In this document: in pieces, positions 12,747 through 17,870 of the stretch | Layout: the number at the start of each line of letters is the position of its first letter | Numbering within the stretch: the first letter of the stretch is position 1 | Virus record (IMG/VR): IMGVR_UViG_3300046010_015469 | Coordinates: 1 to 22,808 of that record | Source: a virus | DNA length: 22,808 nt | Reading direction: 5' to 3' (one strand) | The notes under the pieces: generated by a model | Databases searched by the model: none | Told to the model about the DNA's origin: nothing | Seen by the model: only the letters and a program-made list of their open reading frames with translations | Program-made: the position numbers and the translations under genes

Positions 12747-13394
12747 CTACCAGACAGTAAATTCTTCTACTTCTATGCCCTCCATAGCAAAAGCGTATAC
12801 ACCTGTGTGCTTACAGCGGTATATACGCTGATAGATAGTGGAGTAATTTAGTCCTACTTCTTTGCATAAGCTCTTAGCGCTATACAGTATTCCCTGGTAT
12901 AAGTACATGGTTTTAGTTACGTTACCCACTACAGGTCTTTTACTACGTAGTATCCTAGATACAGCTATGCGCACTGTTTGTTCCTGTGGGGATACGTAGT
13001 CTTTATTCTGTCTGCTCTTAGCTACTCCGCTTTCATCCCGTCCGTTATCATCTTGCCATCCTAGCGCTAGTTCTTCTTTTCCTATGTGTCGGACAACCAT
13101 ACTACCTGGATTTTGACCGGTTTTTAAGTAGTACGCAATCCTGTGTGCGTAAAATACTCCATGCCCCCGCACGGACACTAACCATTTTGCTCCGTTTTTT
13201 GAACCAGCTGGTTCACCTATTTTAGCTTTACCATTTTTACTAGCAACTTTCCATACAAGGCCCGAAGGCGAGGTACTAGATAGCTCGAGCAGATCTTCAA
13301 CTATTGGTGGAATGGGGCGTGGAGCGCCATTCCTGTTGAGCGCGTAGTGCACATCGGTCAGCGGAAGGCAGCGCTGGTATGTCTGAGCAGGCAT
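12747..13394 (-). CDS. AT-rich HNH-like/homing-type protein
   Basis: This is a 215-residue product from ATG 13394; a TTG at 13418 would add 8 residues. The N-terminal half has the phage-HNH layout: SPSGLVWKVASKNGKAKIGE, then a repeat-like AGSKNGAKWLVSVRGHGVFY, AHRIAYYLKTGQNPGSMVVR and H. Counted from the TTG start, His92 and His111 fit two HNH histidines, but the usual V-D/N-H-x-D...N-N follow-up is replaced by RHIGKEELALGWQDDNGRDE, so cleavage activity is doubtful. The C-terminal half carries a helix-turn-helix of NUMOD type (SAKSLCKEVGLNYSTIYQRI). G+C is about 37% in 12901-12960, against roughly 60% around it, a sign of recent arrival. It faces the sigma gene head-on with one base between their stops. 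It is a probable selfish gene. Confidence 0.65.
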   Translation of the reverse strand: MPAQTYQRCLPLTDVHYALNRNGAPRPIPPIVEDLLELSSTSPSGLVWKVASKNGKAKIGEPAGSKNGAKWLVSVRGHGVFYAHRIAYYLKTGQNPGSMVVRHIGKEELALGWQDDNGRDESGVAKSRQNKDYVSPQEQTVRIAVSRILRSKRPVVGNVTKTMYLYQGILYSAKSLCKEVGLNYSTIYQRIYRCKHTGVYAFAMEGIEVEEFTVW

Positions 13395-13513
13395 ACAGGT
13401 CTCTGAGGTACCCCACAAGCATACCCCCTACAACTTTTATTTATATACAGTTTTTCTAGCCCAGGATGTGACATATCCCCCTCTAGCCCAGTCTCACTGC
13501 GACGCAGGGCTGG

Positions 13514-16764: not shown

Positions 16765-16926
16765 ATGCGCATCATCACCCTTCAAGTCGTGCGCGAGCAC
16801 GGCACCGAGCCACGCCTTGCCGTTCAAGTGGATGGCCGCCGTGGCGTCCCTTCATTCCTCGCCCCTGAGGACGTTGGCACCTGGATCCAGGGCTTCATCG
16901 CCGCACTCCCCCCGCTGGAGGACTGA
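16765..16926 (+). CDS. Small unknown protein (53 aa)
   Basis: The frame from ATG 16765 to TGA 16926 encodes 53 residues. These begin MRIITLQVVREHGTEPRLAV and continue QVDGRRGVPSFLAPEDVGTW. A beta-hairpin followed by an amphipathic helix (EDVGTWIQGFIAALPPLE) is plausible. I do not recognise a family. It starts 4 bases after the previous gene and shares one base of its stop with the ATG of the truncated signal-peptide frame at 16926 (TGATG). That junction suggests that it and the original RlpA-like gene were translated together before the HNH gene arrived. Confidence 0.55.
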   Translation: MRIITLQVVREHGTEPRLAVQVDGRRGVPSFLAPEDVGTWIQGFIAALPPLED

Positions 16927-17033
16927 TGCGCCGCTTGCTCCTCTCCTTCGCAGCCGCCGCGCTCTGCACCCCCGCGCAGGCCCGCACCGTCACCGCCACG
17001 GGTACAATGGGTTGGTTGCATGAAGAGCCTTGA
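16926..17033 (+). pseudogene. Stranded signal-peptide end of an RlpA-like gene
   Basis: The ATG at 16926 begins MRRLLLSFAAAALCTPAQAR and continues TVTATGTMGWLHEEP before TGA (17031-17033). Residues 1-19 are a good Sec signal peptide with the cleavage site AQA/R. The mature part ends after about 16 residues, which is too short to fold. About 570 bases downstream, HA-REVTASVYDSWYHG opens an RlpA-like domain, and AR-T-VTA here matches AR-E-VTA there. I read this as the original 5' end of that gene, cut off by the HNH gene that starts with TTG at 17030. It may still be translated as a short secreted peptide. Confidence 0.7.
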
Positions 17034-17608
17034 CCGAGGAATGGAAGCCTGTCCCGCTTGAGGGCTACTGTCACCTCTACTTGGTTTCCAGCCTGGGGCG
17101 CATCAAATCCCTCGATCGCCAGGTCGTCGAGAAGACAGGCTTTATGCGCCTACACAAGGGAAAGCTGCTCACTCCAAAGAAGACCGGAGCATACCTGGGC
17201 GTTTCTTTCTTCGACGGTGTGAGCAGCAAACGCTTCTACATCCACCGACTGGTGGCAATGGCGTTCATCCAGAACCCGTTCAACAAGCAGTTCGTAAATC
17301 ACCTCAACTTTGACCACCGTGACAATCGTGCAGAAAATCTGGAATGGGTCACTCCAAAAGAAAACACTGCCTGGAGCGCAGCTGCTGGGCGGCTCAAAAG
17401 CGGTGAAGTCCCGCGCGGAGCCGAATGCCAGCGCAGCAAACTCAACGATGAAATGGTCCGCGAAATGCGCCTCACTTGGAAACCAGGCGCATCAATGCAG
17501 GAGCTTGCTCGTCAGCACGAAATCACGCCGGCGGCTATTTACAAGATTCTTCGCGGCAGCAGTTGGAAGCACGTGGAGCCTCCTGTTGCCGTCAACTGGG
17601 CACGCTAG
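17030..17608 (+). CDS. NUMOD4/HNH homing-type endonuclease
   Basis: This 192-residue protein starts with TTG 17030, with GAAGAG a few bases upstream as a possible ribosome site. Residues ~3-50 are a NUMOD4-like DNA-binding unit (EEWKPVPLEGYCHLYLVSSL, GRIKSLDRQV). Residues ~68-115 are the HNH core (FYIHRLVAMAFIQNPFNKQF, VNHLNFDHRDNRAENLEWVT) with His72, His91 and the N-x-x-x-N-L-E-W ending. Residues ~130-176 hold a NUMOD-type helix-turn-helix (QELARQHEITPAAIYKILRG). All core positions look intact, so it should nick or cut DNA near its insertion site. Spacer DNA on either side is almost absent, so a self-splicing intron is unlikely. Its last ~100 bases overlap the proposed start of the RlpA-like gene in another frame. 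Confidence 0.9.
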   Translation: MTEEWKPVPLEGYCHLYLVSSLGRIKSLDRQVVEKTGFMRLHKGKLLTPKKTGAYLGVSFFDGVSSKRFYIHRLVAMAFIQNPFNKQFVNHLNFDHRDNRAENLEWVTPKENTAWSAAAGRLKSGEVPRGAECQRSKLNDEMVREMRLTWKPGASMQELARQHEITPAAIYKILRGSSWKHVEPPVAVNWAR

Positions 17609-17870
17609 AGAAGTAACAGCTTCTGTTTACGACTCCTGGTACCACGGCCGCACCACCTACTGCGGCGACGTCTACCGCCACTGGGAAACCTCCGCCGCCC
17701 ACCCCTGGCTCCCCTGCGGCACCCGAGTGCGCGTCTCCCACCGAGGCCGCACCCTCACGGTGCCCATCACCGACCGCTGCGACTGCGCAAGTTTGGATCT
17801 CAGCGGCGGCGCCGCCTACCGCCTAGGCGTCCCCCTAGACGGCATCGCCTCCGTGCACATCTCTTACTGA
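17505..17870 (+). CDS. RlpA-like double-psi beta-barrel protein, displaced from its signal peptide by HNH gene
   Basis: Residues from ~35 on (REVTASVYDSWYHGRTTYCG, HPWLPCGTRVRVSHRGRTLT, VPITDRCDCASLDLS, AAYRLGVPLDGIASVHISY) match the double-psi beta-barrel of RlpA-type proteins, which bind or cleave glycan strands of peptidoglycan. The T-D-R and L-D-L-S motifs are kept, and Cys pairs suggest an extracytoplasmic site. The frame continues upstream into the HNH gene. From TTG 17505 it gives a 121-residue product whose N-terminus, LVSTKSRRRLFTRFFAAAVG then STWSLLLPSTGHA, looks like a new signal peptide read in a different frame from the HNH protein. AGGAG lies one base before that TTG, closer than usual. 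ATG 17448 is another option. The domain is firm, the start is not. Confidence 0.7.
   Translation: MLVSTKSRRRLFTRFFAAAVGSTWSLLLPSTGHAREVTASVYDSWYHGRTTYCGDVYRHWETSAAHPWLPCGTRVRVSHRGRTLTVPITDRCDCASLDLSGGAAYRLGVPLDGIASVHISY

Follow-up and report, generated by a model that had tools for sequence, protein, structure and literature searches.

An HNH gene lodged in an RlpA-like gene

The window analyzed here is the complete virus record IMGVR_UViG_3300046010_015469 (22.8 kb; 22,808 nt), in which an HNH endonuclease gene sits at the junction between the signal peptide and the mature domain of an RlpA-like gene; a stretch resembling a second signal peptide is overprinted, in another reading frame, on the 3' end of the HNH gene. 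Positions are those of the window, and the related contigs to which it is compared (L-numbers) are IMG/VR records, mostly metagenome assemblies. The window is probably from a cyanophage: Synechococcus phages account for 19 of the 22 phage records with a related RlpA-like protein. A DNA-level search of annotated phages with the region gave no match, and a tRNA search found none.

The original prediction held that a signal-peptide frame is cut short by the HNH gene and that the RlpA-like domain resumes after it, and every part of this arrangement was found in its place (Table 1). The TGA stop of the remnant signal open reading frame (ORF) overlaps the HNH start (TTGA). The frame of the mature domain, which is +1 relative to the HNH gene, is open for 103 codons ahead of the predicted cleavage site, all of them within the HNH gene. 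Cleavage is predicted after an alanine (codon 17604-17606), the site being placed by eye.

The HNH protein belongs to the NUMOD4/HNH family and is of the I-HmuI type. Both Pfam domains exceed their curated cut-offs (NUMOD4, E = 7.5e-10, 39.3 bits, cut-off 23.4; HNH_3, E = 2.1e-7, 30.9 bits, cut-off 24.8), and a sequence profile matches I-HmuI with E = 5.1e-14. I-HmuI (1u3e) is also the best PDB match (E = 1.9e-7) to the AlphaFold model of the protein, which has a mean predicted local distance difference test (pLDDT) score of 93.9; the template modeling score of this match is only 0.51 and the root-mean-square deviation 9.6, so the domain arrangement is not superposed. The fold and the presence-absence polymorphism described below agree with the assignment. 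A second HNH-like gene lies at 12747-13418 on the minus strand, with a partial HNH_3 match only (19.4 bits, under the cut-off).

The frame ending at 17870 contains a DPBB_1 domain (E = 2.2e-17). Because the NCBIfam rlpA model gives 42.8 bits, under its cut-off of 82.15, the gene is named RlpA-like and not RlpA. In uninterrupted relatives the DPBB_1 domain stands behind a signal peptide, as judged by eye and by hydropathy. When viral contigs were scanned with the mature domain and the best 80 of 277 loci kept, an ATG-started leader was directly upstream in 74 and an HNH gene in 6. Three RlpA scans overall, together with two added loci (L163 and L269), yielded at least 110 distinct 550-nt segments without the HNH motif and 7 with it (up to 850 nt upstream, less in some loci, the window itself excluded). 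Among the rows without an HNH gene, some contigs being counted repeatedly, an ATG is found 12-35 codons ahead of the mature domain in 189 of 194, and a GTG in the remaining 5. The original prediction had proposed that uninterrupted relatives be found and the insertion point placed: two empty alleles, L004 (which reads MRRLLLSFAAAALCTPAHARTVTATVYDGWYHG) and L006, exist, and the junctions have been placed.

Table 1. Features of the interrupted RlpA-like locus in the window.
Feature	Position	Strand	Description
Remnant of original signal peptide	16926-17033	+	ATG 16926 to TGA 17031-17033; 35-codon ORF, reads MRRLLLSFAAAALCTPAQARTVTATGTMGWLHEEP to the stop; uninterrupted counterpart in L004
Remnant signal end	within 16926-17033	+	MRRLLLSFAAAALCTPAQA/RTVTAT
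Left junction and short leader up to HNH start	17000-17029	+	match to empty allele L004 stops at ..ACCGCCAC
HNH homing-endonuclease-like gene, 192 aa	17030-17608	+	TTG 17030 to TAG 17606-17608; NUMOD4, HNH_3 and a C-terminal helical DNA-binding-like region
Overprinted N-terminal region with signal peptide-like stretch	17448-17606	+	+1 frame within HNH 3' end; ATG 17448 or TTG 17505 to ..RLFTRFFAAAVGSTWSLLLPSTGHA
HNH C-terminal tail EPPVAVNWAR past the WKHV motif	17576-17605	+	in +1, the same DNA encodes the hydrophobic end of the overprinted signal and its cleavage region
RlpA-like (DPBB) mature domain REVTASVYDSW.., intact	17607-17870	+	DPBB_1 match; frame ends at 17870
Right co-transferred tract	17607-17627	+	element-type codons for REVTASV; host-type sequence from ~17628

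Four lineages with a common right junction

HNH genes lodged in this position fall into four lineages. Lineage A comprises the window, L002 and L003; lineage B, L005, L007, L008 and L163; lineage C, L024; and lineage D, L269. A is thus present in three records and B in four separate ones, while C and D come from one each; D was detected by searching with the other three HNH proteins, aligned. The four proteins are 47-59% identical. Beyond them, the next HNH relatives in viral contigs have approximately 43% identity over most of the protein, among the matches listed; in bacterial genomes, from which 80 of 220 HNH relatives were kept, the best identity over most of the query is 41% among those kept. 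With D as query no fifth lineage appeared among the loci listed, nor did a DPBB profile detect one in the 407 HNH loci fetched (bacterial included), though others may exist: an RlpA-like domain (E < 1e-45) adjoins the HNH gene in 21 of these loci, all of them A-D contigs, and one further weak match, in L463, is far from its HNH gene. L139, in which the +1 frame of an HNH gene continues downstream, was rejected as a lodged candidate, having no signal-like stretch. The L024 record holds two further weak HNH matches, one of them with a stop, and the L007 record holds one.

The left junctions differ in all four lineages, falling at codons 4, 6, ~15 and ~25 of the interrupted gene. They lie after ..VTAT in A, MRRFTL in B, MKRLALFAALALCAP in C and MIRA in D. 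These left stubs match uninterrupted relatives or, in the case of B, the stub of L003; in B the host gene's own start opens a reading frame that runs straight into the endonuclease. The right junction, by contrast, is common to all: ..GSTWSLLLPSTGHA/REVTAS in A, ..GSTLLLNVQLTGHT/RPVTAT in B, ..GSTLFLLSPLTGQA/RPVIAT in C and ..GATLIQPLPLIA/RPVTAT in D, a pattern of ..(A/T)R(E/P)V in which the HNH tail overlies the signal in the second frame. All seven lodged loci that were translated (D and six others) keep the RlpA domain open as far as its stop.

Empty, A-type and B-type alleles coexist in near-identical phages. Over the 480 nt upstream, identity per 60-nt block is 95-100% among the window, L002, the empty allele L004 and the B alleles L005, L007 and L008; within the domain, L004 and B agree at 98-100% in the third 51-nt block. 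L006 is more distant (73-80% in the blocks closest to the gene), and the blocks of L003 fall out of register because it lacks the preceding small gene. The A element itself is identical over 583 nt in the window, L002 and L003, though L003 has another local background and another original signal. Directly past the HNH stop both A and B have GTAACAGCT, where L004 has GTCACCGCC and L006 has GTAACCGCC; host-type sequence resumes within ~20 nt (A) to ~40 nt (B) of that stop. Given these element-type codons, common to A and B and absent from L004, we conclude that the moving unit consists of the HNH gene, the new signal and the first mature codons.

L003 differs in one further respect: upstream of ~5133 the small gene preceding the RlpA-like gene (MRIITLQVVREHG..) is missing, the sequence being joined at a shared ATGCGC. 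Its remnant signal, MRRFTLALAAAAL, resembles the B stub MRRFTL, which we read as recombination around the insert.

Openness and conservation of the second frame

As the original prediction recognized, the case for overprinting would fall if relatives had the frame closed. It is open in all four lineages, where it runs 64-136 codons into the HNH gene. The expectation was set by recoding: the HNH protein was held fixed and its codons were redrawn from each gene's own usage. A frame that was open and equally hydrophobic over its last 30 codons arose in 1.9% (A), 0.9% (B), 1.0% (C) and 9.4% (D) of 20,000 draws each, for which Fisher's combination gives 1.2e-4 if the four results are independent. 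The best 11-residue hydropathy of the overprinted signals is 1.47 in A, 2.09 in B, 1.97 in C and 2.05 in D; the last three lie inside the range of native signals (1.75-2.89, from 92 distinct 30-residue stretches). Among 124 distinct HNH C-termini, a +1 frame both open and hydrophobic is present in 5 of 5 lodged rows (B being represented twice) compared to 2 of 119 others. The empty relatives, the three further lineages of like arrangement and the recoding results confirm that the observation exceeds chance.

Similarity among the +1 peptides of A-D was measured in successive windows along the HNH gene. Over the last 30 HNH codons it reaches z = 5.03, a value that none of 4000 recodings equaled; in the windows that precede it, z declines through 3.73, 2.76, 0.92 and 0.87 to -0.92. 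The +2 frame gives, for the same six windows counted from the last, 0.62, 0.66, 2.51, 1.09, 2.61 and 1.69. Because the +2 values are raised elsewhere, the signal specific to +1 is limited to the last two windows.

The original prediction also called for a comparison with other HNH genes. Pairs of genes were compared over the 30 codons ending at the WKHV motif, using 15 lodged pairs (six lineage pairs, B being counted four times) and, as controls, 3395 other HNH pairs with identities of 42-65%. In the +1 frame lodged pairs have a mean z of 2.27, whereas controls have a mean of -0.04 (sd 0.97; 95% point 1.58, 99% point 2.33, maximum 3.36); in +2 the lodged mean is -0.34. Pairs among B, C and D score 2.4-3.8. 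Both +1 frames are open in none of the control pairs.

The end of the overprinted signal is encoded by the HNH tail, and tail lengths vary. By an approximate measure, at most one residue follows the WKHV position in 58 of 124 HNH proteins; A and B extend 10 residues further, D 8 and C 19. In the model of the window's protein the tail is coil, yet well placed (pLDDT 95 for residues 181-190 and 72 for residues 191-192), and does not bear out the idea of a by-product without order. The model is compatible with a tail owed solely to the overprint but does not demonstrate it.

Candidate starts for the RlpA-like protein are present within the HNH gene. In the window they are ATG 17448 and TTG 17505, and across the lineages +1 starts cluster at alignment columns 149-154 (A, ATG at 150; B, TTG at 152; C, ATG at 152; D, ATG at 149/150), which is 52-55 codons before the V of the mature domain. 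Frame-specific conservation begins near columns 144-156. Since conservation begins there and all four lineages have a start in the cluster, we prefer a start at this point and a long signal peptide; the RlpA-like protein probably starts internally at the cluster. Starts closer to the hydrophobic stretch (TTG 17505 in A, a GTG in B, an ATG in D) are possible. In the leader before the A HNH gene the eye finds a -10-like TACAAT. The sequences GGTACAAT (A, window 17000-17012) and GGTACCAT (D, L269 ~1289-1299) precede HNH genes and are possibly an element-borne extended -10 promoter, again by eye.

A probable replacement 5' end, its rivals and known systems

We consider it probable that an HNH homing element, having neither intron nor intein, carries a replacement 5' end for the RlpA-like gene, the secretion signal of which is overprinted on the 3' end of the endonuclease. 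Cutting, homing, internal initiation and secretion we infer as follows. The endonuclease would cut empty alleles near VTAT/VYD, at the conserved start of the mature domain, where the left flank of A ends. During repair, homology of the mature domain would guide the right side, while the left side would be joined raggedly. Upstream, a truncated old signal would thereby be left behind; downstream, the incoming element would provide another start codon and secretion signal. The endonuclease would now draw on the old ribosome entry, through TTGA coupling in A and through a reading frame joined to the old start in B, and the internal start would yield the RlpA-like precursor.

The ends of the overprinted signals, LLLSPLTGQARP and IQPLPLIARP, resemble the native LLLSPAQARQ and LLLPLPATARP, respectively. 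On account of this resemblance, the origin was probably a rescue of the host gene: insertion would have struck the hydrophobic part of a signal peptide, the surviving second half of which recruited a new first half from HNH DNA read in +1. The original prediction had offered two alternatives: a replacement 5' end carried by the invader, or invader DNA used to rescue the host gene. Both agree with the data, each for its own period. At present the 5' end arrives with the element, as the A and B codons past the HNH stop indicate, and the native-like signal ends point to rescue at the outset. Its interpretation as a whole is thus supported. Its description of the second signal in the window as convincing stands in part: the frame is open and signal-like, but by itself it is the weakest of the four, and the function of the window's own overprinted signal is backed mainly by its relatives.

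Several observations weigh against this reading. The hydropathy of the window's signal is below all 92 native stretches, pairs that include A score only 0.71-1.70 (control 95% point, 1.58), and D alone is not significant in recoding (0.094). The null is imperfect, +2 similarity being raised also in windows outside the overlap (z of 2.5-2.6), and when identical codons at shared residues are simply counted, the overlap has 52.9% and the upstream part 44.5%, a difference short of significance (p = 0.10 with the overlap set against the whole remainder). The confident placement of the tail that bears the signal's end means that structure does not mark it as superfluous. Lineage C has no ATG, GTG or TTG 20-51 codons before the domain, which leaves it either a start far upstream, with a correspondingly long signal, or a less common start codon. 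By eye, the ribosome-binding sites ahead of the internal starts look weak. Finally, C rests on one contig and D on one contig of 4.5 kb.

Some of these points would suit a by-product, in which the HNH motif Y..L.G..WKHV happens to give a hydrophobic +1 peptide and the RlpA-like fragment is a dead remnant. Part of the +1 peptide is dictated by the conserved WKHV codons, 2 of the 119 other HNH genes likewise have an open and hydrophobic +1 stretch, and the window taken alone is weak in both hydropathy and pair conservation. We nevertheless judge this explanation unlikely: recoding under a fixed HNH protein seldom yields the observed frame, the B, C and D pairs exceed the control 99% point, and a dead remnant sits poorly with a domain open in every lodged locus translated and a junction at the same residue in four lineages. 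A split gene, in which the RlpA-like domain would lack a signal peptide or arise by frameshifting from the HNH ORF and would act inside the cell or be released at lysis, could use other starts in the long open +1 frame, and an excerpt of PMC2988022 describes split yet functional genes around phage endonucleases, such as nrdA of Aeh1. It appears quite improbable, given that uninterrupted rows have their ATG, or else GTG, 12-35 codons before the domain, and that a product lacking a signal would need neither the conserved hydrophobic stretch nor the kept (A/T)-R junction.

Removal of the insert at the RNA level, by a self-splicing intron that carries the HNH gene and restores the original signal, has precedent in that phage group I introns harbor HNH genes of this type; I-HmuI, the closest solved structure, is an intron endonuclease according to the same excerpt (PMC2988022). 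Even so, an intron is highly improbable here. Rfam gave no match at the gathering threshold in the window, only two chance-level antisense matches around the insert at E up to 10 (E of 1 and 3.2), and none up to E = 1 in the B, C and D loci. Neither a recognizable catalytic core nor one exact insertion point with rejoinable exons, which define group I and group II introns, was seen. Only ~30 nt (A) or ~80 nt (D) precede the HNH ORF, none separate it from the RlpA frame in A, and the residues VTA stand on both sides of the insert there. The left junctions lie at four different codons, and B keeps just six codons upstream, from which splicing could not restore the original signal. The claim in the original prediction that almost no spacer exists for a self-splicing intron accordingly holds. 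The insert is not an intein, being out of frame with its flanks (upstream, the frame closes at 17033; downstream, it is +1 relative to HNH), and no Hint family was found up to E = 0.1 in the HNH or RlpA frames of the window. Ribosomal bypass of the kind known from T4 gene 60 was dropped as a candidate: it would have to span ~600 nt, compared to near 50 nt in that gene.

Homing endonucleases are thought to survive in genes through intron or intein removal, or to sit between genes. A replacement 5' end carried by the element appears to be a further solution, in which a new start and a new secretion signal are brought in the endonuclease's own 3' end, and it has been kept through the deep divergence of four endonuclease lineages. 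The two genes may by now both rely on one shared stretch of DNA. We put forward tentatively, as possible rather than probable, that the overprint is a device of entrenchment: with its 3' end serving as the only secretion signal of the RlpA-like gene, the endonuclease gene could not be deleted or decay there without disabling a secreted phage protein. If true, the host gene holds the selfish gene in place, and a homing element can lodge in coding sequence without intron or intein and escape the usual loss that follows fixation. The arrangement is comparable to gene birth by overprinting, in that a signal peptide would have arisen partly on foreign DNA. The claim as to how selfish genes avoid loss can be tested, and the empty, A-type and B-type alleles of near-identical phages provide natural controls.

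A related case emerged on the side. At L091:4676-7051 a terminase large-subunit ORF (phrog_979) with intein-like ends (PT-HINT; Pfam Intein_splicing at E = 7.9e-6, below the cut-off) fully encloses an HNH gene that is read in a different frame; the central part of the intein would be endonuclease-gene DNA read in the alternative frame. L094, L111 and L118 were flagged by the same ORF test only. A search of the literature turned up no paper on such an arrangement.

A search of open-access literature on signal peptides in combination with endonucleases, cyanophages, RlpA or overlap, judged by titles and the starts of abstracts, did not find the arrangement described here, and four known systems bear comparison. 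In lambda, the Rz/Rz1 spanins provide a phage secretion signal inside another gene in its +1 frame, as here; they involve no mobile element and no replacement, and both proteins act in the same lysis step. Free-standing endonucleases of the T4 type split genes (mobE in nrdA of Aeh1, mobA in gene 60) and downstream promoters can lie inside them, as an excerpt of PMC2988022 relates. They too are endonuclease genes without an intron in a phage gene, with a stop-start overlap to the upstream frame, but there two polypeptides reassemble, whereas here the upstream piece is apparently discarded and the downstream piece gains an overprinted signal.

Closer are the hidden HNH genes of the ShiLan type (Pacc40 too), which lie out of frame in phage DNA methylases and were described in 2025 (PMC11855218). 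From what the excerpted paper states, they share with the present case an HNH gene lodged out of frame in a phage gene, no intein or intron detected, a patchy distribution and an open host frame. They differ in that translation of the host frame there passes through the entire HNH gene, adding an in-frame segment to the host protein. Here only the HNH 3' end is doubly read, giving a predicted cleavable signal and a putative new start, and the original 5' end would be abandoned. The HNH gene is not wholly nested in the host frame: the +1 frame opens only past HNH alignment columns 99 (A), 85 (B), 66 (C) and 135 (D), and the host frame coming from upstream stops no later than the HNH start, except in B, where it is itself the HNH frame.

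In fungal mitochondria, endonuclease ORFs (mORFs; Allomyces atp6; Glomus atp6, atp9, cox2 and nad3) replace the 3' ends of genes (PMC3630166, in excerpt). As in those systems, the inserted endonuclease gene brings a foreign, divergent piece of the host gene, and the displaced native piece stays as a remnant (PMC3630166, likewise). A divergent copy of the terminus is carried by the element here, in the form of the element-type codons past the HNH stop, and conservation of the frame suggests that this terminus is used in place of the native one. The differences are that the N-terminus (5' end) is replaced, encoded by the endonuclease 3' end in another frame, and that a phage and an HNH enzyme take the place of mitochondria and LAGLIDADG or GIY-YIG enzymes. 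By analogy with these systems, the arrangement is best read as a mirror image of the fungal mORFs and a cousin of the hidden HNH genes of phage methylases.
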